NCBI GenBank assembly: GCA_037074765.1
Contig: JBAMDO010000154.1
Coordinates: 1-64,000, forward strand
Length of the DNA: 64,000 nt
Origin: Mansonella perstans
Lineage: Eukaryota; Nematoda; Chromadorea; Rhabditida; Onchocercidae
Reading direction: 5' to 3'
Every line of letters begins with the position of its first letter. The stretch's first letter is position 1. Positions 166 to 44,319 of the stretch are shown here, one piece after another. The notes beneath the pieces were generated by a model. The model had not been told where the DNA came from, made no database searches, and saw only the letters and a list, made by a program, of their open reading frames with translations. Position numbers and translations under genes: made by a program.

Positions 166-244
<79 letters not shown>

Positions 245-489: not shown

Positions 490-509
490 CTCTCTCTCTC
501 TCTCCCTCT
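490..509. repeat. CT microsatellite upstream of the BTB gene
   Basis: A short pyrimidine (CT)n tract lies about 230 bp before the first coding ATG at 741. The rest of 429-740 is AT- and pyrimidine-rich and presumably holds the promoter and 5' leader. I see no other gene there. Confidence 0.8.
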
Positions 510-740: not shown

Positions 741-7712
<6,972 letters not shown>

Positions 7713-8652: not shown

Positions 8653-8838
8653 TACATACATATACGTATACATACACATACACACATATACACACATACA
8701 CATACACACATACACACATACACACATACACACACATATACGTATATACACACATACACATAACATACACACACACACATACCTACATCATAACACAAAT
8801 AAACACGCACAGACGTACGCACAGTACGCACACAAACT
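8653..8838. repeat. (CA)n/(ACACAT)n microsatellite
   Basis: An imperfect CA-rich array with interspersed TA, such as runs of acacatacacacat. It sits in the convergent intergenic space. The following segment (8839-9622) is A-rich and contains three diverged copies of a ggataattagaa-type motif near 9350-9460; I see no gene in it. Confidence 0.9.
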
Positions 8839-9622
8839 GCTGTACCTGAAATAATAAATCAATATGATCTATTACAAGGACATACATACATGATGCACTA
8901 TACAAAAACTTAGCAGTGTATATTACTTTAAACATTAGCTATGTTCATTTCACGTCAAAAAGTTTTTTATATCATTGCTAATGTTCTTTATGCATTGTTC
9001 ATTTATCATTTGATGTGAACAAAAGAGTAAGTAAAGCTTTTCTTTCCATACAATTTCTTAAAATTTCAAAACAAAAAGAAGAAAAAAATATTCTCTTAGA
9101 TTTGATTGAAATCAATTTTGCAAAGATAACATATAAGTATTTCATTTTGAAATATTGAAAATTTTTGAAATTTTTACATCATTTCAATTTGTAAAATTGA
9201 ATAATAATGTTTACACAATTAGTGTTTTATTTTATTTCCAATATAAATATTAATGGAAATTTTGAAAAAAGAAAAAAAAAACAATGGCTTTTTTCCCTCT
9301 AATTTTCATTTATGATATATGAAAAGAAAGACAAAATATTTGAATTTTTGAAGGATAATTAGAAAAAAAAAACTTATAATTAGCATACTTGATCTGAGGG
9401 ATAATTAGAAAAGAAAAAAAACTTTGTAATTAATATGCTTAGTGTGAAGGATAATTAGAAGAAAACTTGTAATTAGTGCACCTGTTCGTTTGTTTTCTTA
9501 TTATAAGCGTCTTTTCAAAAAATAAAAAAAAAAAAAATGAAAGAAATAATAAAAGAAAAGTGATATCATTTTAAGCTTTTAGAAAGACATTTTAAAAAAA
9601 ACGAAGAAATTGGTTTTTTTTT

Positions 9623-11160
9623 TTAATAATTCATTCGTGTAGATGTTTCTTGTGTGGTACGAATACGCTTCTCGAGACGTTTTTCCCAATGACAATCTCG
9701 ATCATATGGTAAATCGTCGATAATGTAATGCTCACCATTTGGTAGTGGTTGCTTACACGCAGCGCACGTGAAACAACGTGGATGCCAATGCTTATCAAGT
9801 GCAATCAAACATGAATCGATAAGTATCTCACCGCATCCTGATATTGAATAAATGTATAATTAGTCCAAATTTTTTCTTTTTTTCCCACTTTCTCCTTTGT
9901 AAATTTAAAAAAGTTGTATATAATTATGTTGAAAGTTTTAGTACGTTTGATTTCGAATGAAATATATATTTTTCATAATTCGATTGTTAAATATTTCATT
10001 AGCTTAGCAATATTATTAGCTGAATTTAGTCTAACAATATCATTTAACTGATCTAAGCCTAGCAATATTATTTTCCTTACTTACAAGTTTATCTTGTTAA
10101 TTTGATGTAATTTTAAAATAATTCGAAAAGAAAAAGAAGGAATGGAGAATATTGTATTAAAAAAATCTGACACTGCTTCATTTGAATTCTAATCAACAAT
10201 TGTCAACATTTTTGAGAAGGGGAAAGTTACTGTATTATTTGTTGAGATTCCCTGATAAGGAAGGAATTAATCTTAAAAGCTAATTCCAAATTATTCACTT
10301 ACTTAATAAATCTTACTCTGTGATCATTTATGAAATTGAAGAAAAAAAATCGAACAATTAACAATTACGAAAATCTTCAAAATCAAAATCAAATATTCTA
10401 CAGTTAACAATGTTTGTAGCAAATGCCATTAACAATAGCTAACAAAACAATTTGTTGTTTATTAATTAATAAATAATTAGAAATGGAAGAATTATTAACT
10501 GACCGTGACATTTTGGATTGTATTTCTTAGAGAAACACTGTACACAATATGGCATATCATCTGCAATCTAAAAACTTTTCGCATTTATATCTATGGTCAA
10601 TTTAAATTACAAACAGAAATCAATTAGAACTTGTATACTCAACAGTACATAGATTTTCCTTCTTCACTATAAAACTATTTTATCCTTAATTCATTACTTA
10701 TCAGATCGCAGTTACTGCTTTCCTTGAACATTGAGGTGAAGGAATTAAGATGAGGAAATTTAATAATATATGTTTGAAGTCACTCCGAAACTAAAATTAT
10801 TCTTTGCTGAATTGTTATTACAAGTCGAAAGTTCAATTTACCATCTCCGAAAAATCTTACCCGTCCAAATCACACGATACCCGGGGATTACCGGCCCAAA
10901 TTATCAGAAAATACAACATCATATGGCATTTATGAAAAATACATGGATAGATAGTATCGATCGAAGAAACTGATTACCTGATACGTTTGCTTAATTGGTG
11001 CATTACAAGCATGGCAACGAAAATGATCGGGATGCCAAAGGCGATTCATTGCAATAACAGCTTCCTCACCCAATGATGTATTACAGAGTGCGCACATTCG
11101 ACGATCACCTTCTGGCTGTGGAACATATCCAACACCATGGCTCAATGTTGAATCACCCAT
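9623..11160 (-). CDS. Small protein with two LIM domains
   Basis: Three exons on the minus strand (11160-10978, 10567-10504, 9837-9623) join in phase to 153 residues. LIM1 uses C23, C26, H46, C49, C52 and the pair C69/C72. LIM2 uses C81, C84, H101, C104, C107, C110 and ends in D128-R-D-C131, where the first metal ligand of the last pair is Asp instead of the usual Cys. Beyond a ~22-residue N-terminus and a charged tail there is nothing else, so this looks like a protein-interaction adaptor. LIM domains bind zinc and mediate contacts in cytoskeletal or nuclear complexes. I cannot assign it to a named LIM family. It lies about 410 bp downstream of the phosphatase gene on the same strand. Confidence 0.87.
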
Positions 11161-11568
11161 CGTAGCTTGGCTTGAAATACGAAACTAAGCTAATAGAAAT
11201 AACTGATCAATGATAAATCCATTCACTTTTATAATTCTTGAAAATAAAAATTTACACATTTGAAATAAAATATGTAAAATTTGCAATTTATTCACATTGC
11301 ATTTCGTTTTTCATTTATTCAAATATTCATTTTAAAAGAAAATGCAAGAAATTGTTTTTTCTATGATTAATGTTATTGAAATTATCAATGTTATTAATGA
11401 AACATTTATTCATGCATTCATTTTATCCTCTTTTTCTTCAGGTACGTTTCATAGAGTATCGTTAAAATAAGACTATCAACAAGATAAAAAGATGTCAACT
11501 TTATTGAATTGCAAATTTTGTAATATATTCTAAGCATATTTCAATGAATCCATTGAAATCAAGTTTTT

Positions 11569-16172
<4,604 letters not shown>

Positions 16173-17202
16173 CTAAATATTGCAGTAATTAATTCACAAA
16201 GTGAATGCTAAAATGGAATTAATGTATTCTGCTCAAGAACATTAATTGGTAAAGCGCATTCAATTCAGCAATTCATTTTTTAGTTCATTAATTGAATGGA
16301 CTTAAGCAATGAAATACAAAAATACCTGTCCTGCACCACTTTTCAGATACCTGAAATGTTTGCACTTTCCATGCAAATAGCAGTGAAGGTTAAAAAAGAA
16401 ATTTCAGTGAAAAACTTTCATCTGAGTTATTTGAGATTCTCAATTTTGTTTTTTTTCCTACGATCCCTGATTTTTTACAGTATTTACAATATCTTCATCA
16501 AAAAGACAAGGTTAATTTCGAATTCTTTAACTCTTCATTTTCTTAACAGTTGTAAAACATTTTTTTAAGAACAATGTACACACTTCATTTTTTGTACAAT
16601 CTTATTCATGCTTAAATATTGGTGACACTCCGATAAACCAAGAAAATTGAATGAACCGATTGGGATAAATTTTACAAAATAAAATGAGCAATACTTGTTT
16701 GAATATTGATATTTATCATTTCAAATTCTCATTTGCAATAATTGTCAAACTGTTTCATATGAATCAATCGATATTGCAATTCTTCAACGTTGCCTAATAT
16801 TTGAATGATAGAAAAGATTATCAACAAAAGATTTTTGAATTTTTTCCCATTATTAGAATGTAAAGGAAAAAGTCATGTAATTATGAATGGGGAGAATTAA
16901 GAACAATTTAACATTTCAATACATTAAAAATAATTTTTGTCAATAACTTGTCACGAATGTTCAACATAGATTTTTGGTGTAATTTTCCACAATTCGAAAA
17001 GCGTATTCAGAATATGTGCATGTCAGAAAAGGAAACTTTTCTAGCTAAACTTTCAACAAACTGCTAATCAAACCAAAACCACAATTAATTTAAAAATTTT
17101 TCAACATTCAAAATTTCAATTTTCAGAAAATTAAAATGAAGAAAACAAAAGATTTCAAACTGTGAAACAAAATCAATTACACTTGTGAAATAATATGTAT
17201 CG
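16173..17202. other. Upstream region of the PTP gene, first exon not resolved
   Basis: The missing start exon of the minus-strand PTP gene should lie here. Candidate minus-strand exon fragments exist near 16320-16390 (for example a frame ending YLKSGAGQ before a GT donor) but none can be chosen with confidence. The plus-strand 90-codon frame at 16296 is Phe/Leu/Ile-rich and looks like chance. Confidence 0.4.
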
Positions 17203-17478
17203 TTTTTCTAAGTTGTAAGCAAATTCAACCGTTCGAAAGCTACCCTGGTGGAGCTTCTTGAAAGACAGCAAAAGAGGAAAGAGATCTTCGAGGACATGTT
17301 ATCCGGAAGAGATGAGCACTACCGGAAGATAACCTGGAAGATTATCAGTATCAAACTTGACCATTTGTCATCTGTAAATGAGCCTAGAGGTGTGAAAGTG
17401 TTTCCAGAAGATAATGTTAATTCTTTCCATACAAAAGGTTTCAACCGTCAGCCGGTTATGCCTACTAAATACTTTTAA
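17203..17478 (+). other. Orphan open frame, coding-like, unrecognised
   Basis: The frame is open from about 17203 to the stop at 17476-17478, with an internal ATG at 17248. It encodes a charged, helical stretch (ELLERQQKRKEIFEDML) followed by a polar C-terminus ending PVMPTKYF. The composition is clearly less AT-rich and more protein-like than its flanks. I recognise no family. It could be a last exon of an unmodelled + strand gene, a small gene, or a relic. It lies just upstream of the tRNA-associated inverted repeat. Confidence 0.4.
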
Positions 17479-17559
17479 TAATCTCAACAGTTTCAGAAAA
17501 CATCAAACAAGTTAATGCGTGCTTTTGTGCTTTGAGATTCCGGATAAGAGACCGAAAAA

Positions 17560-17680
17560 CTCAATACTCCTCAATTTCCTACCTGCAATCTTTGAGATTC
17601 CGGATAAAACATTCAACAATCACATCAAATTCAATTAAAAAGACAATGAAATTGCAGATAGGAAAGTGAGGATTATTGAG
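17560..17680. repeat. 30-bp inverted repeat abutting the tRNA gene
   Basis: 17560-17589 and the reverse complement of 17651-17680 match at 27 of 30 positions around a 61-bp loop. The right arm ends on the first base of the tRNA. A 17-bp direct repeat (tttgagattccggataa) occurs at 17531 and 17591, the second copy inside the loop. A transcript across this would fold into a long hairpin. It could be a tiny foldback element or a structured leader. Confidence 0.8.
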
Positions 17681-17750
17681 CGCCAATGGTGTAGCGGTAT
17701 CATTGCACCCTCCCAAGGTGCAGACCCGGGTTCGACTCCCGGTTGGCGCA
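17680..17750 (+). tRNA. tRNA-Gly (anticodon CCC)
   Basis: A complete cloverleaf can be drawn. The acceptor stem is GCGCCAA pairing with TTGGCGC, with discriminator A. A D arm contains the A-box-like GTGTAGCGGTATCAT. The anticodon stem is GCACC/GGTGC around the loop CTCCCAA, so the anticodon is CCC (reads GGG, Gly). The T arm is CCGGG-TTCGACT-CCCGG with a good B box. There is no intron. The layout matches the known eukaryotic tRNA-Gly(CCC) pattern. The gene is transcribed by RNA polymerase III and stands alone on the + strand between minus-strand protein genes. Confidence 0.96.
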
Positions 17751-17781
17751 AGGCACTCCCGGTCACTTAGGACTCCGGGGG

Positions 17782-17786
17782 TTTTT
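17782..17786 (+). terminator. Probable Pol III T-run terminator
   Basis: The first run of five T residues downstream of the tRNA, about 32 bp past its 3' end, is preceded by a GC-rich segment with CCCGG/CCGGG complementarity. T runs of four or more end RNA polymerase III transcription. Confidence 0.5.
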
Positions 17787-18870
17787 CCAGTTTTCTGTAT
17801 CTAAATCACTAAATCATTGCATATGCCACTGCGAGAAATTGCTTACTGCCAATTTAAAGTACAATTACATAAATGAATTGTCGCAGTCACTTTAAAAAAG
17901 AACTGTTACTATCTTCATTGTTTGCATCCATCGAACAAATTTGTCTCTGCCAATAAAATTTCTCAACCAATTAAAAATGGCCATCTATTACGGTCAATAT
18001 TAGCAGGCACAATCATTTATTACTATAAATTAATTTGGAAACTTTCAGCTAACAGCAAAAATAAAATTGCTTTAAAATTTAAGAAATTTCTATTAAGATT
18101 ATTTCCTTACGACTAAACTATATGGAATGATAAACATGGTTGTAATAACTTTGATAATTTAAGATAATAAGCTAAATTATTCATTCATTTTGTTTCGTAC
18201 AGATTTTGTTTGTTATGTTAAATTTTAGTGACCGAATAAAAGAAAGTTTTATTTTGTTATGTTTGAATGACTAGCATTTTTTTGTTAGTGCAAGATTTCC
18301 CGATCGACATTTAAAATGCATTTAATACCAGTTATTACAGTTCTTCATTTTTTCTAAAATTTTTCAAAGTAAAGTAAAAAAATAAAAGAATGTTAGTAAC
18401 TACAAAAATATGAAACAACAAAAAAGTCTGTGAAAAACAAAAAACATGGCAATCAATGATTAGCAGAAATGAACCGATTTGATCAATAAAACATAATCAT
18501 TGATCAATCAATGATATGATTGATCAATGAAATAGATTTATCAGAATGGAAGCAATCATTATGCCTTTCTACCACAAATGTGTTGTTTGTTTGTTTTTTC
18601 TTAATTAGTAACAGCAACTGCTAAAAAAAAAACCATAGAAATAAATTCGTAAAAGTTATTCATCAATAAATGAAAGTATTAATTAGAATCAACAAATCAA
18701 AATATTAATTAATCTAGTGAAGTATTAATCAACTAATATAGTGATATATTGTACATGCATGTCTATGTATTTTAAAAAAAAAATTCTTTACTTTTTATTG
18801 TAAAAAAATTACAAATTTGCTGCAAAAAAAAACAACAAAAATCTAATTTGTGAAAAATTAAATTTATGTA
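17787..18870. other. Intergenic AT-rich DNA, no gene seen
   Basis: Nothing coding was recognised. A cluster of alternating tgatcaat/attgatca words at about 18478-18535 forms a weak palindrome-rich patch. The 64-codon plus frame at 17922 has no protein-like features. Confidence 0.5.
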
Positions 18871-19008
18871 AATTTATACAAATCAGATTGATGCAAATTT
18901 ATACAAATCAGACTGATGTAAATTTATACAGATCATAATGATGCAAATTTACACAAATCAATTTATACAGATTGATTTATGAAGTAAATTTATACAAATC
19001 AGAACTGG
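18871..19008. repeat. Diverged 25-bp tandem repeat overlapping a stop codon
   Basis: The word aatttataca or a close variant recurs at 18871, 18896, 18921 and 18946 (period 25), followed by irregular copies to about 19008. The array runs into the last coding bases and stop codon of the FAX/CDR-type gene, so the final residues (DLYKFTS) are encoded by a repeat unit. Confidence 0.8.
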
Positions 19009-21547
19009 CTTGGCTCGAGACAGCTGGTGCATTTTCTGGAGCATTCATATTACACTTCCAGTTAGAATTTTCAGAAAATTCCGTTACGCATTTATCCCAA
19101 TCTGGCCAATAACGCCCTAAAATTCAATACATCAATACAGTTTAATATTACGTTCCCATTTTTTTCTCAAATTTAAATGCAATTGCATTTTATTCAGTGC
19201 TTCTATTAATTCTTTTTGTTTTAAATTTAATTAATTTGACAATTGCTTATTTTGATCAATACCAGCAAAATGTTGTTATTTGGTTGATTTCATAACTGAA
19301 AATTGTCCACTCTAAATATCGTTCAGTGTTATGTGCTTTTTTTAAATTCGGTAATTATAAATCAAATTTAAATAAAAAGTCTCTGAAAAAAAACCTTTGA
19401 TCCGATCGCAATATTCTTTCAAATTTGGTAGTTCCGTTTCAATTGTGGTTTTTTGCGGCAAATCAAATGGAGCATAAACAATCTGCGCCAATACTCCGAA
19501 TAATGTTGCATCAACCAGAAAAAGCAAAAATTCAATTTTTCCATACTAATTTAATGTCATAAATAATGTAGCAATTATAAAAGTAAATCTGAGCAAATTT
19601 CGCTTACTTTTGTTGGCTTAGAACCAGTGAAATAGTGTTTAGTGCCAAGATAGGATGAAATTGCTTTCAAATCATCATTAGCAATATTAATAATTTCCTC
19701 ACGATTGTGCTTTGCCATAGCAATTACTTTATTTTTTTGTTTTACCTGTAAATTTTGTCTTGCGAAATGATCTTCAATCTTCAAATAAAAACATTTCACT
19801 TAACAAAATTGTTCAAGTGCTAATTAACTTTGAAAGATTAGAATAAAAAGAATGGCTAATTTGCATGGTACCTAGACCAATATCTGAGAACATTGCCAGC
19901 TGAAATTTAATTCATTATTCTAATTTACCAATTTACCACATTTTCAGGGGATAATTATACAAATATTTTGCATGCTTTCGGTTCAAAAATTCAAAATAAG
20001 CAAATTATACCGCTATCCTGAATTTTACTAACATTTTCAGAAGCTGCGTTGTTCATTTCGAATTTCATTTAATTAGTCAGAAATGAATGGTATTATTTTA
20101 AGCAAAAAAAGATTTGTCTATCTGATTCTACTTACACTTATGAAAAGCATACTTTTGAAGAGATCATCTCTTTAAGCAGAAATTTCAAAATTGGTGTCAG
20201 CATGCCAAATGCTTGATCTGGTAAATATTGGAAGATGTCATTGAGATGCTCCACGACTCGAAAATAATTAATGGTCGTTGCCAATGAATTTTCAGCCAAT
20301 GCTTCAAAGGCTCGAGCTGTTGCTTTTTGCTCATCATTTAAATGATTTTCCATTGATTCTTTAGCAAAAATTACTGCCATATCACTATAAATTCAATCAT
20401 TCGTAAAATTTAATTGACTTAAATTTTCTTTTTCTTTTAATGAAATATGAATTCATCTATTTGATGAACTAATTTATGCATTGTATTTTAGGGAAGAGTA
20501 CAGATGAAAAGAGGGGAAAGGAAAGCAATGAAATGATGAATTTTTCAAATTTCAGCATGAAATATGAATGAAGTTTGAAGAAAGTTCGAATCAGTTGTAG
20601 TCCTTACCGTATTCCAAGTGCTGAATCCGGATATTCTTTGCCGTTGTATTCCAAAAATGGTAATGTTCCTTCCAGAGAACGTACATTCCAAGAACATACA
20701 TTCTATGCTTGGGAAAAAAAATTACTTCTATTAATTAAATACTGTACTTATCATTTGCCACTGCATTAAAATAAAAAGAAAAGCAGCAACTTAAAAGAAT
20801 TTTAAAAAAAAAGAATAGCAAAATTTTATGACAATCTTTGAAATATTTGGTACAAGTTAAAATTTTATTGCGGCACAAATTAAATTTTCAGTCAGAGCTA
20901 TTTTTTTGTTTAAATCAAAATGAAATTTAAAAAGAGATTTTGATTTTTTCTTTCAAATTCTAACTTCATATTGTATATCAACCATACGTAGCCAAGTTTC
21001 CAATTTTAGGCAAAATGGTGAAAAATTTGGTATGCATTTCACTCGTGGGAACTGATACAAATAAACTAGGCCTAAAATAGGTAGTTACCTGAAGCATGAG
21101 TAATTTAACACATAAGTAAGATTACAATGGTGATTATGAAACACAGTAATGCTATAAGTTTAAGTTAAGCATTCAGTATTTCATTTTAAAATTTCGAACT
21201 TCTAGATTAGCAGTTTTCTAATTGCCTAATTTTTTTATTCTATTCTGATGTTTAATTAAATGACTTTCTCAGGGTTAATTAATTTAACAAACATTTACTA
21301 TAATTTTAATTATGATTATTTATAGTTGAATGGGCAGAAGAAAAACTGTCAATGTTAATTAATTCGAGAAAAAGTACTAACCTTGCTTGTAATCATCTTT
21401 AATTGGTGTTTTGCGCTTTCGTGTAATCAAATATTTATACGGAATATAAAATGCAATGACAATTCCACCAATTGCAGCAGCTTTCGTCAATGGTGTTAAT
21501 TGTTTATAAGATTCGCTTGCATAAGTTTGTAATGAATTGAATGTCAT
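18977..21547 (-). CDS. FAX/CDR-type GST-fold (metaxin-like) protein
   Basis: Eight exons (21547-21382, 21071-20965, 20702-20608, 20384-20153, 19899-19872, 19771-19608, 19545-19395, 19116-18977) join in phase to 360 residues. A membrane segment at about 23-40 ([17 protein letters not shown]) is followed by the hallmark [44 protein letters not shown], and a C-terminal GST-like half with [18 protein letters not shown] and [13 protein letters not shown]. This is the failed-axon-connections / cadmium-responsive (CDR) family: GST-fold proteins without proven transferase activity, membrane-anchored, linked in model animals to axon outgrowth or metal stress. The start is chosen at 21547 because TGCAG directly precedes the ATG. 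A 10-residue insert ([10 protein letters not shown]) before VDATLF is unusual and could be a mis-modelled acceptor. Confidence 0.9.
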
Positions 21548-23381
21548 CTGCAGTAAAGTACATTTAAAATCTGTCACTAACTTTTAGCAACATAACGCAG
21601 CATAATTCCATTAATTTTTCAAAACACATTTTACTATCATTTTTCATCGAAATAAATTAATGTCTACTTATCATTTCAATTACGTTCAAAAATCTTTACT
21701 AATTATAACTGATCTCTGTCATCTCACTTATCCATCACACCGAGTATTTTTATGTGATAACTTTTAAATTATAAAAAAGTATAAATAAATTTTTCTCTAT
21801 TAAAAAACGAGCACTTTTTAACTACTTTGAACGACTACTCAATTATTGTTACTTTGATTTTTTCAGGCCCGGAAATAAATGACTCATCTGTACAGCTTAA
21901 TAAATCTAATCTGATGATTAAATATTAGCATTTAAAAAGAAGCCAATTGTCTAGTTAACTAACTAGATTGCTAATGTAACTGAAAATCATGTGTTATGTC
22001 CTCATCATATCAATCGATAATATTTATCTTCTAGCTTTTCAAATTCTTTAAATTGTAATTTTTTTTGCAAAATTTATTAAGCATTAAGTGATAATAAATG
22101 ATATAATATACAGATGGAATGAAAAAAAATGTGAAATTAAAAGTACCTTAAATTTTAATATTATAATAATATTTAAAATTTTGATATTGCATAAGTTCTA
22201 GACTTAAGATTTTGTATCCTATGAAATAGAGCCATAAATTTTTGAAACATAAACTCAGATTTGCTTAAAATATATAGAACAGAAAGAGTTCATAAAAATT
22301 TTGAAATTTACCAATAGTTTAGTTTTTAATCGATAATAAAGAATATTATCTAGCTAACCATATCGATTAAACCGTGTTAACTTAATTGAAGAATCCGGCA
22401 GGATCATGTATTGGAAGTTGAAAAAGTCTCCTTGCAATATCTCAGGTGGATAAGTCGATGAAGATCACCAATCCGATCTGATTCACTACAAAAAAAATCA
22501 AATAAGGGAATAGGTAGCCTGTACTAAACTCTCTAAATGGTTATTATTAGTCGAACAAACTGATAAATTCAATTGATCAAAAGCGCCAGCTATTATACAA
22601 ATTTACCGAAAATTTTTTCCAAGAACTTTTTTTCATTAACTTAGTGATTTATTAACAAAGGAAGGCAAGTATAATTTGGAAGAACAAAAATAAAACTAAT
22701 TTAATTGGCCGAAAAAAAATAACTCAATTGGAAAAAGAAATAAGGAAAAGAAAAAAAGTATGACAAAAAAGAAGAAAGATTAAATTTCTCCTTCTTTTTC
22801 TGATTTCATGCTTTAATTTTAACTTAAATACTAGAAATGAAAGAAATGAAAAAGTAATGAATGGACAGAATGTCTAATTCATAACTTTTCGTCTCTTTTT
22901 TGTTTTTGTTTTTTTTTTTTTCAGAAATACATAGAGATAGGAACAAACTGCAAAACTGATTGATTTTCAGAGAAAAAATCAATTTTTCTTTAAACAAGAA
23001 AGTGAGAAAGTTAAAACAGAAAGAGAGAAAGTTGAAAAATATTTATAATTGCTGCTTCACAGTATTTCTGATTTGTCTGTTTGTTTGTAGTTTATTGCAA
23101 TTAATTTATGATTAGATTTAAAAGTCTACAGCTTTATGAAATAAATCTTTGCAATGAAGTATAATAGCTAAGCAACTATCGGAAAATTTCCAAGTCACAA
23201 TGCAATTTTCTAGTATCAATTGTTTCAAATTAAAATGCTTGCGAAACAAATAATTTGATAAATCCTTTGTCCAAAATTATACAATCATTGGCATATTGTA
23301 AGGAATCCTCGCTTATAACCAAGTCAAAAGTTAAAACAATCATGCTCTGCTTAATGTCCAAAGGTCATGTGGAAATGTAGC
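21548..23381. other. Gene-poor intergenic region
   Basis: Upstream of the FAX/CDR-type gene. AT-rich with poly(A)/poly(T) runs and a near-palindrome ctagttaactaactag at about 21951. A less AT-rich patch at 22390-22490 contains no open frame of note. I see no gene. Confidence 0.5.
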
Positions 23382-23489
23382 AAGCTAAACCCACAATTGT
23401 AAGCCAAACCCACAATTGCAAGCCAAACCCACAATTGCAAGCCAAACCCACAATTGCAAGCCAAACCCACAATTGCAAGCCAAACCCAC
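23382..23489. repeat. 19-bp tandem repeat (5.7 copies)
   Basis: The unit aagccaaacccacaattgc starts at 23382, 23401, 23420, 23439, 23458 and 23477 (last copy 13 bp). The first copy carries two substitutions; the others are identical. It ends a few bases before a TATA-like ctataaagg at about 23494, placing it just upstream of the orphan exon. Confidence 0.95.
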
Positions 23490-23669
23490 TCCGCTATAAA
23501 GGGTAGCATTCGCCCAAAACTGTGTCATCAATTCTTTTACATCATCCTTCGACAGCCTCATTTTTGCTGTTCGTTTTTGTCCTTTTTTTCATCATCATTT
23601 TTGTAAAAGAGCCTCCTATAATTCTTCCTACCATTTCGCTCATTTTTAATTATCGTTATTTTCTATTAG

Positions 23670-23812
23670 ATGGTACTGTTGCATGAGTACTGGCGCAATA
23701 GTTTTATCAATCAGGTCCGAGTCCAGGCTGAGACAAGTATCATCACAAATCCTCCCATCGAAAGTGAGTTTGTGACCTTACACATAGTTCAATTACAAGA
23801 CTTCGTCCGCAG
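23670..23812 (+). CDS. Orphan first exon, unrecognised (partial)
   Basis: A TTTTCTATTAG splice acceptor directly abuts an ATG. The frame then stays open for 47 codons (start MVLLHEYWRN, end LQLQDFVR) and reaches an AG|GTAATA donor at 23813, leaving phase 2. Base composition is distinctly less AT-rich than the flanks. A TATA-like box and a tandem repeat lie 170-290 bp upstream. The architecture is that of a first coding exon, but I find no convincing downstream exon. It may be a live small gene, a relic, or part of a mobile element. No family is recognised. Confidence 0.4.
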
Positions 23813-25136
23813 GTAATATTTCACGACAATTATAGCTATTATTTTAAAGAAGCATTCCATTTTTTGCATGATTGATAAAATATAATTAAGTTAAAGATGA
23901 ATTTTGAACTTAAATTTATTGCTTTCGAATTAAGCCTTTGAGAAGAAATTATAGTTAATCAAAATAAAAAAAAAAAAAAAAAAAAAAAAACTAACAAAGT
24001 GGAATCAAATTCAATTGATTTCATCAAAGTTTTCTTGACTAGTTCTCAAGTATTACCAAAAACTTACTGGTTTCATTCGTCAAAATAAGTTTTTAAAAAA
24101 GAGAGAAAAAGAAAGGAGGAAAGCGAAGAGAAAGGAAGATAAAAAAAGGAATGTTTGTTATCACTGTAATAAGAAAACTTCAAAATTAATTGTGATGCAA
24201 TTAATACAATTAATATTTTATTTTTTTGTACACACAAGAGACAAAGAACAGAACAGCAAGCGCCTAATTTTACATTAAGTAAATTGAAGCGAAGAAAAGA
24301 GGAAAAATAAAAGACGTCTTAATAATTAATTTGACATCATTTTTTTTAACGAAAAAAATTTCTTATTGGTAGTTTTGTATACTTTTAATTTAACTGGATA
24401 ATTTATTGATTTTGGTATCAGCAATATTACATTAAGCAGAATATAGGTATGAAGTGGTCAACTATGTTAGCATTGAACTGATAAAAGTAGTAAATAGTGA
24501 CAATAAATTTAATATAATCGAATTGCAAAATTATTCATGATTTAAAGTTACAACTACGTTGTTAATGGTATCAATCATTAATGATTTGAAGTTATAATTG
24601 CTTCGTATACTGATATCGATTATCTAAAGGAATTCCAGATTAATTAATAATAAATGATTACATTTCAGCCAATCACAACTAGTATGATCGTTGAAAATTT
24701 TCGAAATTTGGCCTTTTAAAGTGTTTGATAGTTTACTTGATGCCGCATTAATTAGTGCTTCGTACGTCTATCCAACACGATCATTTTCCTGTTAATTTAA
24801 ATTTAATATTAGCAAGGCATCCAGCAGTAAACAATAATAATGATGATTGCAATGATTGATATTGTGGGTTCTGTACTGATCTTACCTATCTTATAAATCT
24901 GTTTCTGGGAATGAAGATTCACATTGAGGATGCAGTATTTCATGAATCGTTCCAATAAAGCAAACAAAATGAGAAATATATGGCGGTTATTACTTTCTGA
25001 TTGACAATTAATGACTCTTACAATCTGACATCATTTAAAATTTTTTGTCATTGGAAGTTTATGCCTAAATATTGTTTGCATGTGGAAGTCAAATCTTGTA
25101 CTTCAATCAGTATAAATTATTATATTAATATTAGTG
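23813..25136. other. Gene-poor intergenic region
   Basis: Contains a poly(A) tract at about 23966-23991, a purine-rich patch near 24100-24150, and two diverged copies of a ~43-bp segment (atgatttaaagttacaac / atgatttgaagttataat) at about 24538 and 24580. No continuing exon for the 23670 frame was identified. Confidence 0.45.
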
Positions 25137-25474
25137 ATTCAACGATTATATTGGCTGTTTCAACCACAGGTTCACAGGTTGTGAATTTTCAAAATTTGCG
25201 AGTATGTCGTACCTAAAAATTAAAGAAGTAGGAAGCTCAAACAAGGCTTATATGTATGCTGCTAAAGTTGATGATGACCAAATTGAAAACACATCTGTGA
25301 TGGCAAATGCCTACTATCATTTGAAGAATGACAGTTTCTCCTTTTCTGCTTATGTTGGAGCTGGAGTCGGTTTAACAAGGATGAAAATATTTGGAGAAGC
25401 GTCAATAAGACCTTAAAGGCTGGTCTTGATTATTCTATAAATGAAAGTGTAAATATGCATGTTGGATATAGGTA
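25137..25474 (+). pseudogene. Wolbachia-like surface antigen fragment (nuclear transfer)
   Basis: One frame reads ...FSKFASMSYLKIKEV, NTSVMANAYYHLKNDSF, AYVGAGVGLTRMKIFGEA, then hits TAA right after IRP. The next frame continues with LKAGLDYSINESVNMHVGYR before another stop. In bacterial outer-membrane proteins of the Anaplasmataceae surface-antigen family (Msp2/Msp4/P44 and Wolbachia WSP-like beta-barrels) these blocks follow one another in a single frame, so a small deletion has caused a frameshift. There is no start or signal peptide and the barrel is incomplete. There are no introns, unlike all neighbouring genes. Lateral transfer from a Wolbachia endosymbiont into the worm chromosome is the natural explanation. 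Upstream homology before 25137 could not be traced. Confidence 0.75.
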
Positions 25475-26706
25475 AAGTAGTAGTAAAATAGTAGTAGTAA
25501 AGATACACTTCATTCCTAGCTTGTTAAATAAATTTTAATTAAAACATTTAATGTATTAGTTGAACATAGAGCAACATCATTAATTAAAAAGTAGATAATG
25601 TTTTCAATGGAAGAATCCAATCTATTTTTCATTAGTGTATTATTTCAGTGTATCTTTTCCACCAGTTGGATAATATTCGATCTAATACTATTGTTCTAAG
25701 TTGTGTATGTACTGACACTGCATTCCTAGCTTGTTTTTAATTACATCAGAAATAGAGAACCACCGCTCTCGCTATTATAGACATGGAAGCCATTGCTAAT
25801 AATTCTATTGCAATTAAATCAGTCATTTCTATCAATGCGAAATATTACATTAAGTCAGTGTAAAGTGATATTTCTTTTGATTATATCCTTGCTTTTACTG
25901 CTTCCTCTTTTTCAACAAATAGTTATTTTTGAATAAATAAATTAAAAAGAGTTAAATGATTTCGCTATAAATGAAAATATAATAGACAAAACAAAGCAAT
26001 TCAAATATATATGCTGAAATAACTGTATTTCAAGAAATCCCAATAATCTGGTCATATAAAAATGATAACATTTCATACGCCCACGTACGCCAAATATTAA
26101 CTAACTATTTCTGAATTATTCCTCGCAAACTTTTTTACATGAATAATTTCCTTTTGTAACAAATATACACATTTCTATCTATGCATCTGTCTATCTAAGC
26201 TTTCTATCAATTTTTTTTCTGTTAATTTATTAAATTTTAATCCAAATGTCAAAATGGATAGTTTTGTTTGTCCTATTAAATAGTTAAAACGTTAACTTAA
26301 ATTTTATGAAAAAGAAAAATTCTATAAAATATAAAAAATTAATAAGAAATGAAAAATCATTTAACAATGTTTTGCCAAGAAATGTTCAAATCATTCACTT
26401 TTTTCAAAAATAACAGCATTACTCAATCCGCAATATTTATTAGATTGTTTTTTTGTTTAACTGCAACCATAATTGTATATTTGAGTTCCAATTTAGTGAT
26501 ATCTCGATTATAATTTACTGATATACCGATTCTAATTTATTGGTAATACAATTTCAATTTATGAGTATTCGAGTTTCCTTTAACGTTATCGTCATTTGAT
26601 ATGCATAAGATTTTCAAATTATCCTTCTTTGTAAGATTTCCATGCTTCACATCGTGGCCGCATTAATTATAACACGCCTTGGATTTAATTAGATGAGAAT
26701 AGAAAA
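25475..26706. other. Gene-poor region after the Wolbachia-like fragment
   Basis: AT-rich. A short segment containing cattcctagcttgtt occurs twice, near 25513 and 25722. No open frame with protein-like features and no further bacterial-looking coding could be supported. Confidence 0.45.
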
Positions 26707-26770
26707 AGGTCACACGTGATTTTGAAGCTGATCGTTTGAATTTAGCCTTGACCTGGTGTAACTTTGACCC
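26707..26770. promoter_or_regulatory. Cluster of nuclear-receptor half-sites and an E-box
   Basis: Within 64 bp upstream of the hyccin gene are AGGTCA (26707-26712), an overlapping-adjacent CACGTG E-box (26713-26718), TGACCT (26749-26754) and TGACCC (26765-26770). These match core nuclear hormone receptor half-sites and a bHLH site. Clustering in a less AT-rich patch about 400 bp before the coding start suggests a promoter or enhancer element, by inference only. Confidence 0.35.
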
Positions 26771-27165
26771 TTAGTCACATTAAAGCTTTACTGAGCTTTG
26801 TTTTGTAGAAGGAAAACAGTGTAGAGGCATACGTTAAGTGATTTGGAAGATTACTTTGGTAAATGGTGACTTTGTCGTGCAGGTGGTTCTGTTCAGGCAC
26901 AAGGAGTAATAATTTAAGTAAATTTGGTAATTTTTTTTTTTACATTTTTAATTATTTTACAAATCTAAGTTGTATTATATATTTCATATGCAAGTTAATA
27001 TTCCGTGAATATTTTAAATTTCGTCGTTGTTATAAAATGGTAAGTTTGAAAATTTTCTCATCCTTTACTTCTGTGTATTGCAGTTATCACTAGAATGTTC
27101 GATCACTGGTTATCTTCCGTTTAAAAGTGGATGAATTATTCGATCCGAATAATTTTTCAGTTTCA

Positions 27166-30100
27166 ATGAATAGTGACCAATTACAAGATTGGCTCACTGA
27201 TCTGAACGGACGATGGAAAAGTGATACAGAGAAGCAAACACTGAAGGATGTGGAATATGAACGAACGCAGTTAACTCAGGAAAACTGCAAAACTCATTAT
27301 TTAATCAGCTATCTCAAATGTAACTACACTGATATTGACCTAGTACAACCGGTCATAGCACAACTTCTTGCATGTTATTATCGTAGAGGTTATTTTTCTC
27401 TTTGACTTTAAACTAATGAATATGGCTTGGATCATATCGGATCAGACTTTGGGTATTTCTTTATGAAAAATGGCACAGTTCGGCATACTACTTCATTTTA
27501 AGTATAAGTATGTTATAAGACACTTGTCAAGGCGCTATAAAATATTTATGGTTATTGTGTTGATATCCTGAATGAATAATGAGGATTTAATTTTTGCAAA
27601 TACTCAAGTATCAGTTATTTTTTAATGTTAATGTTTATCATACGATTGAATTTCGCGATGAAATATGAAGAAATTAAACAGTTTATGTTTTCGAGGTCAA
27701 CTTACTTCAATTACGTCACTAAATTGAAATATACGTTTTGCTTCCATCACTTTTCACTTATAATATATTTCATTTTTTATAAATAGTGAGATGATTCATG
27801 AAGAAAGGATAATATTTGCGACTTCCTTACGTAATACAATTTTAGGTATATTACGTTATTTCGTATTACAATGCATTCCATCATTAATTCATATCTATCT
27901 TTTGGCACTAGCTAAACGTCAAAGGAAATCAGTTTCCATGTTTGAAACGTTCTTTCTTGCTATGTACAATGAAGAAATACTCGCTGATAGTGCTTTATCC
28001 GGATCAGTGATGAAGAAAGTAGAAGAAGTAAAGTTTCCATAAATATTTTTGTACTCTTTTAAGTTAAATTCACTTCTTATTTCATATTTTGCTTTTTTCC
28101 ACCTAAGGTTTTGATTTGTTGAACATTTTGATATGGCTTTATTCTAGTATGAAGAGATAATAAATCTTTAGTTTTCTTCTTGATGCGATTGACGCCTAGC
28201 ATCTAAAAGTTTTCAGATATTAGAATTTCTTAGGAATAGAATTGAACTTTTTTTTTCTTAGGAATAGAATAGGCTTAATTAAACTTTTTGAGAGTGCGTG
28301 TGTTATCTGCAACTCTAATTCAACTTTTTTGTCTGGTTAAGATGACTGGTTCAGTTTAACTACAATCGAGTTCGGATTAAATTTAACTATTACGTTTGAA
28401 TTGTATTGAATTGGCGTTAATCTCTTGATAGGTTTTGCCATATGGATCAGCAATAGCGAAGGTGATATTTCCATGTTGTTTCGCGGAATGCATCGTTGCT
28501 ATAATGTGGAAAGCTTCTTAAGCTTTTTTTGCTCCGTTGTTAAAGCATTACATATGCGAATGAGGGGTGGTTTGATAGGTATTGCAATGGTGATGAGTCT
28601 TAAAAATGGCATTTTAATGTCAGAAATTTTTTTTGGCATAAGCTTTAATTTTATCCAGATAATTCGAGACGGCTCCGCATAGTTCAACTTTTAATTTTTG
28701 TCTTATTATCTTTTTGATATCTAAATAGTGATTTTTTGATTCATCTTGCATGTTTTTAAGATTCGGATACCATCTGTACATTTTCCGAGTGTATATCATG
28801 ATCCAAAGAAGCTCAATTTTACCTCAGATATTGCGTTGAAACCTGGAACACCCGCATTTGTACAAGTGATAGTTGAAATTTGCATTTTACTGAAAAACTA
28901 AGCAGATCTTGTTTAATCTATTCATCTATCTATTTATCTGTCCATTTATCTGTATATATAATATGTTTTGAATTTTTAAAAACTTATTTCTGTGTTATTT
29001 TTTTTTAACTTATTTAATTTGCAGAAAACTGTACGAATTGGTCCTTACAAATCGGTAGATAGGATTATTCCACAAAACAGGCAAACAGTATTGACTCGCC
29101 TGTTAAAGTCCGTATGTTTTTATTAATCATGGGTTGATATGCAGTTCAAATGTGAACAGTAGTTTCTTGATTGAAACATATACCTTGACTTCATTCTTGA
29201 TGAACAGTTAGCAGTTTTTGTCAGTCAGCTTATAATCATTTCGGTTTTCTTTTTCAGGTGAACGGATGTCTCTGTAGGTTATCGCGCGATATAATATGTC
29301 AAGGTATATGTTTGAGCACTATAGCTCTTTGTCAAAGCGGTTTTTTTTTTCCCAAAACTACATTAGCGTCTCAAATTTTTGGCAGCAGTTTTCGTCCTAA
29401 TGAATTTGATGATTTTTCAAAGTATGTTGGTGCTCTTTTGTTTTTCCTATTTTTTTCTTTATTTTACTTTTGGGTTCTTTAACATTTGTAATAGCTGATA
29501 CAGTCTTCCTCATGCATTACCTGTGACTTTTACACTCCTGTTATATATTCGGTAACTTGGAAATCTACTTCTGGGTTTAGGAAACTTTCAATATATAAAG
29601 GGGTTGCACTAACGAATATCAAGATCTGAAAAAGTGTTTTGTAGAAAACCAAGGTTGCGAATCTCGTCACAATATTTGTTAGAATCCTTGAATGGTATAT
29701 ACTTCGCATTATTCAATGGTGCACCAGAATTAGCTGTTCAGGCTGTTGAGACTGTGCATCAGAGAGCTTTGTATGAATTTTATGCTGATGTTATTCTGGT
29801 ATGTTTTATTATTTCTCTGGAATTTATGCTGGCTCTAGCTAAATTAGTTTATGCTGGCTCTAGATAGATTATGTAACTCTATCCATTCACTTATTTTTTC
29901 ACTGGATCGTATATTTTATTGCAGGTAACAAATAGTATTATCGAGTCCTTGCTTGAAAGTAGTTTTCATAAAAATGAAGAATTGTTGACAGCCAATTGGG
30001 TGCATCCTGGAAAATTGGATGATCGTAAAGGAAATGAAGTGGTAACAAATGCTTCTTTGCAGTTAAAGAAAATGCCGGAGGATATTTCACCTGTTGCAGA

Positions 30101-31224
30101 AGATAATATGAAATTTAATTTCACGGATAGTAAGTTATTTTTCCAGTTATGTTTTACTCACTTCCAAGTTATTTCATTAGTTTCTGCCATCTTGCAGCTG
30201 ATATTTACTAGACGAATTATCATCGACATTGCTTTTCTTTTTTTTTTTGTGTATCTTGAATATTGTTTTTTCTCTGTCGATTGTCTTTTATCTTCAATCA
30301 TTAGGATTTTTCCTGAGTTCTGTTACCTTAGATATATATCGCATAAGACTGCAGATAAAGCTTGTCTTTATATCATTGCTGTGAACCTTGTTGCTCTTTC
30401 AAGATTGTTTTCTCGTATCTCCCGAATTTCACATGCATATTATGAATTAAGCTTTATCTTATATAGGTATTGCGATTTTTTCTATCTCATGCTAATCCTA
30501 GTTAAAGTTATATGATACAATCATCACAAGTTATAGGTGTTGAAAATTTCAAGAAGCGAATTGCAATGAAAGTAGAGCATCGCAAGTTAAGGCGCCAATT
30601 TGGGCATCATAGGCGAGGATCAGTGAGTGATATTATTCCATTAATATCTGTCCTAACATTTCTTGAGAATGATCAGCATTTTATTTGAATACATTCAAAA
30701 AATTTATTGTGTTGCGTATCAAATGAAAGTCTTTGATTCCCGACAGATTAGTGAAATATCTAGAAAATTTTATTAGTATCATATTTGGTAAACACATGTA
30801 TAGTTGTCAAAGTGATAAGTTAAAAGAATAATTGTTTAAGGAAAACAATGATGGAAATGCAGGTGATATCGAACTAGATCCAGTCAATGAAGAATCAGCT
30901 TCAACCTCAACTCCGAATCCTCTAATTTTTCATAATACTGATGAAGTCATATATCAGGGTTCGCGACACCATTCCATCTCACATGGTTTAGCAAATTCTG
31001 ACAACAGTGTTTCGGTTTTGTTTCGACAAGATCAGATTAATAATGGAATATCATCAAAACCAAGTAATGAGTTAACCGACTTTTCGGTCCCAGCAGATAG
31101 CGATTTACCTGAAGCCGTAAAACCGACGTCTGTAGAGGACGGTATACACGACTTGGCAAAGTGGCATGGCAAAATTCAACATATCGATAGTATTACTGAT
31201 GGTTTTGAAAATGCTTCATTGTAA
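27166..31224 (+). CDS. Hyccin (FAM126) homologue
   Basis: Nine exons (27166-27388, 27846-28027, 28761-28865, 29025-29111, 29258-29421, 29645-29798, 29925-30129, 30537-30622, 30841-31224) join in phase to 529 residues. The hyccin fold is recognisable from LQDWLTDLNGRW at the N-terminus, VIAQLLACYYRRGILRYFVLQ, IPSVHFPSVYHDP, VLTRLLKSVNGCLCRLS and LLESLNGIYFALFNGAPELA, which follow human FAM126A block by block. The tail (from about residue 370) is polar and low complexity. In animals hyccin, TTC7 and EFR3 hold PI4-kinase III alpha at the plasma membrane to make PI4P. The start is chosen because a TTTTTCAG acceptor lies 5 bases before the ATG at 27166. Exons 3 and 9 use TTAAG acceptors. Open frames inside introns (for example 28425-28682) are not part of it. 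Confidence 0.92.
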
Positions 31225-33510
31225 AGGGTTCAAAATTCATGCGGATTTCAAATCCATTGGAAGTCTAGTAATTAGTTTTCTTCAACTCAAAATTTTAGGG
31301 TCATAATTTTTTTATCTAGTTGTTTTTCATTGGGATAGTTGTATCTGTAATTTCTTTCTTTTTTTTGTTTTGTTTTTATGTTTTAACAATCTTTTTTTGT
31401 TATAATAGATACATAACAGATAGCTAGATAGACTAAAGAATGATTCTGTAGAAGTGAAATTCTTTTCTCCAAGAATAATCCTTTCCACTGATTATATTAC
31501 TTATCTGGTTAACTTTAAACATCTAGAATTAATAAATGATACAAAGGATATGCGCGCATCACCATTCTCCTTTTTCCATACGTTGCTAGTGAAGACACCT
31601 TAAAATAATTTTTATATCAGAAGATAGAAGGGTTAATAATGATATCACTGGATGTTACTATCTAATCCGTATATGCTCTATATCCTCGAAAAACGAATAT
31701 TTGATGATTACTTATCGCAATATGACAAAAAAAATTTATAATTTTATCCGTTTTGCTATTCATTAAGCCACTCTTGTTTGAATGTAGTAGTTTGAAATGA
31801 TTAAATTACAATCATCAAGCATTTGAAATTTTTGCATGATCGAAGTTGTTTAGATTTGATTTTTGGAAACTGTATCATACCTACTGCATGTTTAGGATTA
31901 TTTTCGTTTTCAATTTATTTTCCAATTTTTTCCAATCATTCACTTCAATTTATTCCATAATGATTCAGCCTCGTTGTTTTGATTCTAGATATTTCCTATG
32001 GTTAGTGTACGATTCTACATCATGTAAATTTTTGCAAGTATGATCCATTAGTCCATAATATTTCTTTTATATTCCTTCTCAGTAAAACATGAATAGTGCT
32101 TATAAGTTTTGGAAGCGATAATTTTATTGGTTTTACCTAGGAATCCTCGAAATTAGCACAATTACTCTGTTTTTTATTTATTTATTTATTTATTCATTAC
32201 AAGCAATAAAAGATATAACTTTTAAGTGTTTAAGATCTTTTCATCTACTTCTCTTTTATTGTGCTAATAAAAGTATTTCAAATTTTCTAAGAAGCATTGG
32301 CATTGGGTTGGAAATTTATGGACATATGGTGAAATTGCTGAAATAATTATTCGAATAAAAAAATTTCGTTTTATTATTTTTCTCTTTGCTACACATTCAA
32401 ATATAATTAATTACATGAAACTTTGCTGCTAAGTACAAATGGCAGCATACGATTTTTTCCAGAATTTCAAAGCAAGAGTGAAAGGATAATTAGAATACAG
32501 GGAATATTGCAATATTTTTCATTTCCTCCAAAATAAAACGAAACAAGTTGAATGATCTTTTTGAATTGAAAAACTTTGAATTCAGTTTAAAACAGCATGC
32601 AAATTTGCACAGCTTTTAAATATGACGATAAAAAAAATATTTAACTATTTCATAGTACTAAATATTTCATCAAATATGTGAAAGAAAGTGTAATTCATCA
32701 TCGAAAAATTGAAAGAATTAGTCTAAGTGTAGGAAGTAATATTTGGGAGATATTTAGCACAGATATTATGGGAAATGGAATTTGCTTAGTTTAAACTATT
32801 GCTACGTAATAATTCCATAGATTTTCAGTAACTAATTATATTTTCAACAAATTTTCTCATATTATTGAAAATATCAAACTTTTTATTTATCACAATACAA
32901 TTTATAATGCTTAAATGAATTACTATTTGTTTGATACTCGGACCAATTGTTATTTCATACATGTATTTATATACATATATTTATTTTTTAAATGTCTTAC
33001 AGTTATAATTTATATATATATTTATTTATTATATATCCATTTTTGATTTACAAAGGCAAATTGATTCTAATTCGAAGATAAATTAATTTCTTTCATTTTT
33101 AGCTATGAAGAGACAAAAAAATTTCATTGCCGTTGATGGTTTATGTTTGTGATACAGCGATCTTTGGTGACCCGGTCGAACTAAGAGCTAATTTCTATTA
33201 TCCTTATTGTATGCGGTGGGTTATTTGTTTACTCTTGGTTGGAGTTAATTAATTATGATGGATTAATTGATTTAATTGTAAAGAATTTGTTTCTTTGGAT
33301 ATTTTACGGTTTTGATGAAATTTCTATGAAATTTTAACAAATTTAATGTAAACTCTTAATACAATTATTTGTTAATGCTGTATTTTTAAATGTTGCTTGT
33401 CACATTTCATTCATAGCAAGTTTATTGATATGCTACTATTATCGTTTTTCAGGACTTATTGTCCTAGAACATCTGAGTGATCCGAGCTATTATTGGTGTA
33501 AGTGGAACAT
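31225..33510. other. Intergenic region between hyccin and DHX16
   Basis: The hyccin 3' UTR, then AT-rich DNA including a (TTTA)n run near 32171-32193. A less AT-rich patch at about 33110-33240 contains no convincing frame and no RNA fold I recognise. A TTTTTCAG acceptor at 33452 is a candidate spliced-leader site for DHX16. Confidence 0.5.
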
Positions 33511-40523
<7,013 letters not shown>

Positions 40524-41163
40524 TTTTACGAAAATTCCTTGTTCATATTTTCGAAAACCCTGAAAATTTATATACATTTTTTTGAAGTTACTACAGAAAT
40601 AGAATAATGTTAACTAATCAAAATGCCATCAATAATGTGAAATAAGCACTGGTTAATGCAGGGAGATTTAATTGCAAATTTTAAAGATGGGTTCTCTCTT
40701 TCTTTTTTTAAACATTGGTTGTGCCTATTGCGTAAATAAATTTTGTATAAAATGATTTAAAGATTCTCTTTGTTGGTATTTGCCGTTTTTGCGGAATTTT
40801 ATATATTTCAGACATTTTTTGCGGCTTTATGAAATGACGAATTTATCTTCTAAGATAATTTTTTATGGGTTATCATATTCGGATAATTTTTTATGTTTTG
40901 TCATATTTAATTTTATTTGCTTGTTACATAAGCGTCATATAATATTCTAAACAAGTTTGTTTTGAATTTCTGATTGTTGGGATGGCATTAGGCAGAAATG
41001 TTGATATCTGATGGAGCTAATCTTGAAGTTTCAACTTAAACTTATTAGTTTGGATGAGGAATAATTTTAATGTTTCTTCGTTTAACTAACGAGCGATTAA
41101 CTATGTTCTTCCTAAAAATTCACCTCTGTCATTGTAATATACTATCATTTGCTGTAGAAGATA
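40524..41163. other. DHX16-PLRG1 intergenic spacer
   Basis: Carries the DHX16 3' UTR with poly(A)-signal-like hexamers near 40730 and the leader of PLRG1, with a splice-acceptor-like ctgtag six bases before the PLRG1 ATG. No other gene is seen. The short same-strand spacing leaves polycistronic transcription possible. Confidence 0.5.
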
Positions 41164-44100
41164 ATGGAACAAGTTACTGCTGTCGGCTCTGAACAAGGAG
41201 CATCATTAGAATCGGCAACAACACAACAACACTTTGAAGCACCAGAAACACCGCAGCAGAAAGCATTGTTGAATTTGGTATTCAGGTCGATGAAACGAAC
41301 GCATGATCTTTTTTATCACGATTATGGAACTCTACCTGAATTGAATTCAGAAGCGTAAGTTTTATTAATAGAAACTGAGAGTCCCTTCGGTTAGTGATTC
41401 TTAGTTTACATATTTTAAAGTGTTGTTTATACATAGTGGATGAGAAATTACATTATAAATCAAGCAATGAAGTAAAAGAATTTCTTTTCATAAAGGCATT
41501 AGAGAAACTGTGTAATTATAGGACAGATTTTCTATTATTATATTCATATTGTTAATATGCATTTTTGGAGAGCAAATTTTCTGCTGAAGAACTTCTTGAT
41601 ATGGTTTTTTTCAGTGATAAGTTATGGCGAGCTGTGAAGTTAAGATCTGAATATGGAAGTGTTATGAAGGAAGTGAGTGAAGCGAAGAGGAAAAAAGAGG
41701 AAGAGCTGCTGAAATTACCGATCAATCCAACAAATATTATAGGTAGTTCTGGTGAGAGTTCCTCAAGAACACTTGCCATAACTGCCGGTGCATCAGAAGC
41801 CATGAAGTCAGCGTTTTTCAATATCAAAAACAATTTTTCATTTGTTAGTTTACTCTTAATCTATTATGTAGCAGAAAATTTTTTCAGTGAAAAAGAAAGT
41901 ATTGATTTAACGGGATCCAGTCGCTCAGAAGATACGATGCGTACAATGTTACCTGCTCGAGCTCCTATTATGGTGAAACCTAAATGGCACGCACCGTGGA
42001 AATTATACAGGTATATTTTCGTATAAACATAGCTACTAGTAGAGGCATCATTTTAAGTTTGTTTTTTCTTGCCCGCGCGTTTGATGAATATTTCCCTTTT
42101 GTAAATTTGTCTACTTTATCTTTTTCAGAGTGATTTCGGGACATACAGGTTGGGTGAGATGTGTAGATGTCGAACCTGGTAATGAATGGTTTGCGACAGG
42201 TGGTGCTGATCGAATTGTAAAGGTTTGTTTGGTTTTTTGATGTTACGGTATCTCTTTTCAGTTCAGAATATTCGTTATGAACTTATGCACAGAATTAATT
42301 TTAAAGTGGATAATATAAATTGACTATTTTTCCTACTTTTTTGTAGATTTGGGATCTCGCAAGCGGAAAATTACGATTGTCATTAACAGGACATGTAAGT
42401 GCCGTTAGATGCTGTAAAGTTTCACGAAGACATCCGTTTCTTTTCACGGGTGGTGAGGATAAGCAGGTAAGCTGACTTTATTTGCTCCTGGCTTGTTATG
42501 AAAGAACTTTTATTTCTGATAGATAAGGAAATCATCCATGTTTTCAGGTGAAGTGTTGGGATCTTGAATACAACAAAGTCATCCGTCATTATCATGGGCA
42601 TTTGAGTGCCGTCCAGGATCTTACTGTTCATCCGACAATTGATGTCTTGATTACTTGTGCTCGAGATGCTACTGCACGAGTAAGAATTTTGAGGATAAAA
42701 ACATAGATTTAAACTGAGTATCACTCTCTATATATTTAAATTGGTTATAATATATTTAAACTGATTACTTTAAATTGAATAAAATATTTTAAACTCTATT
42801 AGTCTCTATATTGCAAGTCAGCACCTTTTCATAGATAAATGATTAAGACGTTTTCATGTATATTTTCGAATTTACTAAATTTTAGGTTTGGGACATGCGG
42901 ACTAAAGCGCAGGTTCATTGTTTAAGTGGGCATACAAACACGGTTGCTTCAGTTATTTCACAGGAAGTCGACCCTCAAGTTATCACTGGTAGTCATGACT
43001 CCACAATCCGACTTTGGGATCTTGCCGCTGGACGAAGTATTTGCACCTTAACACATCATAAGGTTATTTTTCACTTAATTTTTAATCTTCAATTTAATTC
43101 GTACTAAATGCAGGCGATTTAAAAGAATAGGCCTCTTGCAGTAAAAATAAACCTCTCTTTTTTATCTTCACAATATAATTCAGTGAACCTTTTGTTTTTC
43201 TGTTGGTTTATTGCGAACAATCTCTTCCTCAGTTCCACCTGCAGAAGTTTTTTTTTGTGAGCATCCCTCAAAATCAGGTGTATGTGCCATTCGGTATAGG
43301 ATGACAGATTATGTTTGTAACTTTTACGAGTCATTTAGCTAGATGGGATAGTTTTAGATCACCGGAACTCAGATTGGTGTTGAGAGATGAATAGAATCTC
43401 TTTGTTGAGGCACTTTTTTTCAGAAGAGTATCCGAGCGTTAACATTGCATCCTTCACTCTTCATGTTTGCATCGGGGAGTGCTGACAATATTAAAGAATG
43501 GAAGTGCCCGGAAGGAATATTTATCCAAAATTTATCAGGGCATAACGCAATCATTAATTCACTTTCATGTAATGAAGACGGTGTGCTTGTTTCTGGAGGT
43601 GAGTTTCAACACTTAATTTTATATCACGTCCTGAAATAGTTTTCTGAGCATTCCTTTCGCTGCATTTACATTGTTTAGTAGAACTTTATTGGTTATTCTT
43701 TTGATGCCACTTAACGTATACATTCCGACGAAGTGCATGTTTGAATTTAATGAAGTCTTAATTATAGTAAAATAGTGTCGGGATTTTCAGGTGATAATGG
43801 TTCCTTGAATTTTTGGGATTGGAAGAGTGGTTTTTGCTTCCAACGCGAACAGACGAAAGCTCAACCCGGTTCAATCGATTCAGAAGCTGGAATATTTGCA
43901 CTCACATACGATCAGTCGGGTTCCCGATTAATTACTGCAGAAGCCGATAAAACAATCAAAATGTACAAAGAAGATGAAAATGCGGTATATTTATGCATAA
44001 TTCTTGTTTTTAGCATTTATCTAACAAATGCTGATTATTTTTATATCACTGAAAATATACAGATTATCACATGTGTTATCATTTATTCGGCTTTCTTTCA

Positions 44101-44319
44101 GTAAACAGTACTAAACACTAATTTATGTTTTTACTTTGGACGGCTATCCATATTATTCCTTGTTCAGTGACCGACGGTTAATCTGCAGTGGAATATCAAA
44201 TGAAAAATAAATTTGATAGATAAGTGATGATAGTTTTTAAATAAAATACTCATTTGCAGACAGAAGAAACACATCCGATTCTGTGGAGGCCAGAAATATT
44301 GCGACGAAAAGCCTATTAA
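41164..44319 (+). CDS. PLRG1: Pleiotropic regulator 1, WD40 spliceosome factor
   Basis: Ten exons (41164-41354, 41615-41806, 41888-42010, 42129-42222, 42347-42466, 42548-42679, 42886-43062, 43424-43598, 43791-43984, 44260-44319) give 485 residues (human 514). The N-terminal ~170 residues are polar and family-typical ([13 protein letters not shown]). A seven-bladed WD40 propeller follows with repeats closing in [48 protein letters not shown] and KMYKEDEN. The protein is a core member of the Prp19/CDC5L (NTC) complex of the active spliceosome. Intron 2 is 81 bp, a multiple of three, and lacks an in-frame stop, so its retention would simply insert 27 residues. The last exon ends [10 protein letters not shown], as expected for the family. 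Confidence 0.96.

Follow-up and report, generated by a model that had tools for sequence, protein, structure and literature searches.

A probable nuclear transfer of a Wolbachia wspB fragment in the filarial nematode Mansonella perstans

The window analysed here is the whole stretch of 64,000 nucleotides, taken from the start of a contig of 136,699 bp in an assembly of Mansonella perstans (75,729,464 bases, or 75.7 Mb, in 539 contigs). Within the window a short insert of bacterial type is located between two divergently transcribed worm genes, a glutathione S-transferase-like (GST-like) gene to the left and the hyccin gene to the right (Table 1). Both neighbors contain introns, hyccin being matched in pieces in two frames and hence intron-containing, and the GST-like gene being matched in four pieces of which one GST_C_6 piece was above the cut-off (E 4.2e-9) with the other three below it. 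This setting agrees with an earlier note on this DNA that had described a broken surface antigen gene lying between ordinary intron-containing nematode genes. The 701 bp around the insert occur only once in the assembly, and a second Surface_Ag_2 match was not found in the assembly. Further to the left in the window two methods agree on a tRNA-Gly (anticodon ccc) at 17680-17750, and a short tandem repeat at 23351-23606 gives KPTIASQTHNC-type repeated peptides on one strand in the list of open frames.

Table 1. Features of the insert and the worm genes flanking it, with positions in the window.
Feature	Position	Strand	Evidence or remark
Very probable nuclear Wolbachia transfer, internal piece of wspB (P44/Msp2 family), 273 bp, without both gene ends	25199..25471	+	nhmmer, blastn, PF01617
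First open piece, 92 codons stop to stop	25138..25416	+	Wolbachia-like only from about 25199-25204; the start is worm DNA
Second open piece, other frame, with LKAGLDYSINESVNMHVGYR	25404..25475 (within frame 25332-25475)	+	bacterial similarity ends at 25471
10-bp deletion point, frame shifted	25412..25413	+	relative to bacterial loci
Glutathione S-transferase-like gene (GST_N_4 then GST_C_6), flanking worm gene	19399..21018	-	pieces in several frames
Hyccin gene (PF09790), flanking worm gene	27851..29804	+	pieces in two frames, E 5.8e-32 and 8.5e-17

The two sequence blocks on which the first reading was built are both present, NAYYHLKNDSF...AYVGAGVGLTRMKIFGEA being carried by the first open frame and the second block by the other frame. 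The first open piece (piece 1) matched the Pfam family PF01617 (Surface_Ag_2) with E 5.1e-8 and 33.1 bits, above the cut-off of 22 bits and in keeping with the Anaplasmataceae-type surface antigen originally proposed, with no match for piece 1 in NCBIfam. In a protein search of 5.8 billion sequences piece 1 found P44/Msp2 proteins, with 13 matches at E ≤1 among 18 candidates and with Wolbachia named as the source in five of the 13. The top match, at E 9.1e-27, was a P44/Msp2 protein of Wolbachia from the louse Menacanthus eurysternus (80%, covering 76% of the query), and a protein of the M. perstans Wolbachia was also matched (95%, covering 41%). The 92-residue piece found no relative among genome contigs in a first scan or among phages, and piece 1 had no match among solved structures. 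Piece 2 comprises 23 residues, of which 20 equal those of the protein matches P0001, P0003, P0005 and P0006 with the first three residues sitting at the frame break, and alone it matched no Pfam family.

At the DNA level a profile of 25 wspB-like bacterial loci, one per genome with about 900 bp either side of the match (two loci being shorter on one side), matched 25199-25471 with E 5.7e-79 and 258 bits when searched against the 64-kb window with nhmmer. On this E-value chance similarity is excluded, and nothing else in the window was matched significantly by the profile, the second-ranked match having E 0.93. The profile and the DNA tree described below share one input, the best 25 protein-match rows, one per genome, with the locus fetched for each, weaker rows as well as L011 and L012 being omitted. 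The match ends abruptly at both of its limits. The antigen had been placed at 25137..25474 in the earlier note, a location that stands, with the bacterial similarity itself proving slightly smaller than that extent.

Comparison with Wolbachia genomes, the check that had been suggested at the outset, was made by blastn of window positions 20000-32000 against 41 genomes of the genus of genome G001, read as Wolbachia because the named protein relatives are Wolbachia. The fragment was matched at E 2.4e-17 or better in 31 of the 41, the best match stopping at 25470-25472 in 30 of these 31, and a protein match at E ≤0.01 was present in 37 of the 41 genomes with paralogues counted. The closest DNA found is that of genome G023, for which blastn gave 89% identity across 234 columns and a global alignment gave 229 identical columns out of 261. 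In G023, the one genome for which the neighboring genes were named by Pfam, the counterpart gene (L047:9151-9999) is directly 3′ of ribA-virB8-virB9-virB10-virB11-virD4. In the accessible text of one report wspB encodes an outer membrane protein and closes the virB8-D4 operon on its 3′ side (PMC4705124), and the likeness lies in the position of the fragment's nearest DNA relative directly after these genes. On these sequence comparisons the parent gene is wspB, a P44/Msp2-family gene, which names it more exactly than the first reading did. In contrast to an intact wspB the fragment covers only an interior third of the gene, lies outside the operon and has a broken frame; no start, signal peptide or whole barrel frame is retained in its 273 bp. 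As read from its sequence it is a pseudogene piece and no working Surface_Ag_2 member.

The frameshift noticed earlier is accounted for by a 10-bp gap in the worm copy relative to all eight of the bacterial loci displayed, this deletion breaking the frame. Changes found only in the fossil fall at codon positions 1, 2 and 3 in numbers of 2, 3 and 7 (n = 12), the corresponding figures for G023 being 3, 4 and 1 (n = 8). Such small counts cannot speak for neutral decay; if they lean either way, it is towards some of the divergence having arisen in the bacterium. No target-site duplication flanks the insert among repeats of at least 11 bp sought in 24900-25800, a floor below which a shorter duplication would escape. 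Two direct pairs of at least 11 bp are present in that interval (25472-25482 with 25483-25493, and 25505 with 25715), each on the right-hand side of the insert.

The suggestion that more eroded bacterial DNA might lie around the insert was not borne out, as none was detected in 20000-32000 against the 41 genomes or by the profile with its flanking sequence. With the best seven candidates scored per genome, such that faint remains could escape, strong matches in 20000-32000 fell on the fragment only, the next having E 4.7e-7. On the same basis, short weak matches only were found in 1-20000 and nothing at E ≤1e-6 in 32001-52000. The best of those in 1-20000, at 13954-14010 (E 1.2e-7), is inside an ATT-rich simple repeat, and blastn matches at 24919-24948 to several loci (E 0.04-0.54) were weak and were read as chance.

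Elsewhere in the assembly a search for bacterial 16S rRNA (best five of 271 candidates) gave pieces on contigs C52, C270 and C371 and one below the cut-off on C214, with no full-length gene among these five. As pieces only and no full gene were found, nothing in the assembly points to an intact Wolbachia 16S contig. By blastn against the 16S region of G023 the piece L005 (C52:220299-220802) has 93% identity over 615 bp, L006 (C270:29763-30056) has 83% over 321 bp and L007 (C371:1292-1571) has 91% over 149 bp. These three are probably further nuclear Wolbachia transfers (NUWTs) of differing ages, judging by their sequence. Searched with a 19.9-kb stretch of G023, the assembly yielded 27 matches at E ≤1e-5 with the insert included, many of the others coming from one repeated stretch (see below). 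The 16S pieces and these matches together show that the worm assembly contains a number of short Wolbachia-like pieces that have diverged to varied degrees.

Two trees bear on the donor. In a DNA tree of 26 rows with no outgroup the fragment clusters with wspB genes of the presumed Wolbachia genus and stands beside G023 with support of 91/83 (below the 95/80 mark). In a protein tree of 70 columns, from which P0011 (shifted frame at its end) and P0013 (early end) were omitted, it falls in an unresolved group with the Wolbachia of lice, M. perstans and others, the M. perstans Wolbachia protein P0012 being the nearest row by path. Both Mansonella ozzardi and M. perstans harbor supergroup F Wolbachia according to the part of the source available (PMC10195089), and the Wolbachia of the lice Menacanthus and Penenirmus are likewise given as supergroup F in the accessible text of another (PMC12693587). 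These assignments and the tree placements make F the likely supergroup of the donor Wolbachia, the alignments having few columns. P0012 is listed at 134 residues only, compared with 282-292 for the longest six among the remaining 12 protein matches, and P0004, P0005, L010 and L030 likewise start late. From these short and late-starting copies 5′ damage of wspB-type genes may be common, and in some Wolbachia strains wspB itself is described as broken or absent (PMC4705124, in the part available).

The interpretation that best fits the locus is that 25199-25471 is a NUWT with no visible function that is decaying, a reading regarded as very probable. It is the origin that the earlier note had favored, and it is supported by the Wolbachia relatives, the broken frame, the single occurrence and the worm genes that flank it in one long contig. 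A wspB fragment of a supergroup-F-like Wolbachia would have been joined into a chromosome of an ancestral Mansonella-type worm, probably when stray bacterial DNA was used in germ-line repair of a double-strand break, and 10 bp would have been lost from the insert on entry or later. Filarial DNA preparations contain Wolbachia, such that a live endosymbiont read or contig could have been misjoined into worm sequence or carried in as contamination. This is very improbable, since the insert differs from P0012 at two residues of piece 1 (38 compared) and at one of piece 2 (20 compared), and P0012 is continuous in frame where the insert carries the deletion that the eight displayed relatives also lack. 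Contamination by the resident strain is unlikely on account of these protein differences, and neither the small size of the insert within so long a contig and a surrounding sequence that occurs once, nor the other short and variably diverged scraps in the assembly, is in keeping with a misjoin. A worm gene or exon recruited from Wolbachia and still in use is extremely improbable: 70 codons are still open from an ATG at 25204 and expressed Wolbachia-like sequences have been reported in Onchocerca flexuosa (PMC3549793, in the part available), but the frame is broken, both gene ends are missing and one copy was found.

The reading as a NUWT could be refined, in that the donor may have been a different strain, since replaced, from which the present M. 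perstans Wolbachia does not directly descend. Of the three differing residues, two have in the insert the state common to the other protein rows with P0012 alone being odd, and strain replacement and NUWTs of mixed origin have been reported in filariae in the accessible text of the NUWT survey (PMC12693587). Against this, L020 and L021 read K at one of those two residues as does P0012, so that the state is not unique to P0012, an insertion that predated two changes in the resident lineage would give the same pattern, and P0012 is the nearest row in the protein comparison. A replaced donor is accordingly a possible but rather unlikely refinement. A fuller version, in which the scrap would keep the wspB of a supergroup F strain later replaced in Mansonella and the wspB of the resident strain would since have been shortened, is more doubtful still; were it true the scrap would mark a symbiosis that came before the present one.

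Wolbachia is a drug target in filarial parasites. As a NUWT the fragment adds to the fossils that earlier Wolbachia infection has left, and as a marker it could be followed through related worms. NUWTs of filarial nematodes have been surveyed across 22 genomes/species (Vancaester et al., 2025; PMC12693587), and PMC2882956 is among the older reports. The accessible text of the survey describes hundreds of NUWT regions in single genomes of some filariae and the vast majority of NUWTs as non-functional (PMC12693587), and with so many known the fragment by itself changes little. Like the NUWTs of that text it is a piece of a single Wolbachia gene, short and broken, in an onchocercid nuclear genome, with no essential difference from them, and its E-value is far below the cut-off of 1e-30 given there, albeit obtained with our own profile in the 64-kb window only (PMC12693587). 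A literature search on the transfer of Wolbachia wspB into nuclear genomes turned up no evident report of a wspB NUWT, judging by titles and the opening of abstracts. The fragment is an ordinary NUWT for filarial worms, of a kind already well documented.

The repeated stretch of G023 that accounts for many of the matches in the assembly is present as two inverted copies within 20 kb (L047:10134-10595 and 17395-17869). The repeat matches 12 places in the assembly, L049, L050, L055, L057, L058 and L059 being among the loci, of which 10 match the copy at 17386-17718 with 70-83% identity and two short ones match only 10125-10186 with 87-90%. For 17300-17850 of G023 there was no Pfam match in six frames and no Rfam match other than a tRNA just before it. 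As judged from these matches, the repeat would either have been transferred to the worm many times or have multiplied after transfer. Organellar DNA is represented in the assembly by a nuclear mitochondrial ND5 insert at L013:1357-2001 (C119:23664-24122). Its identity is 93% with Mansonella sp. 'DEUX' but only 84% with Onchocerca ochengi and 83% with M. ozzardi, and by this one insert the host worm probably belongs on the M. perstans/'DEUX' side of Mansonella. The insert is still open over 214 codons.
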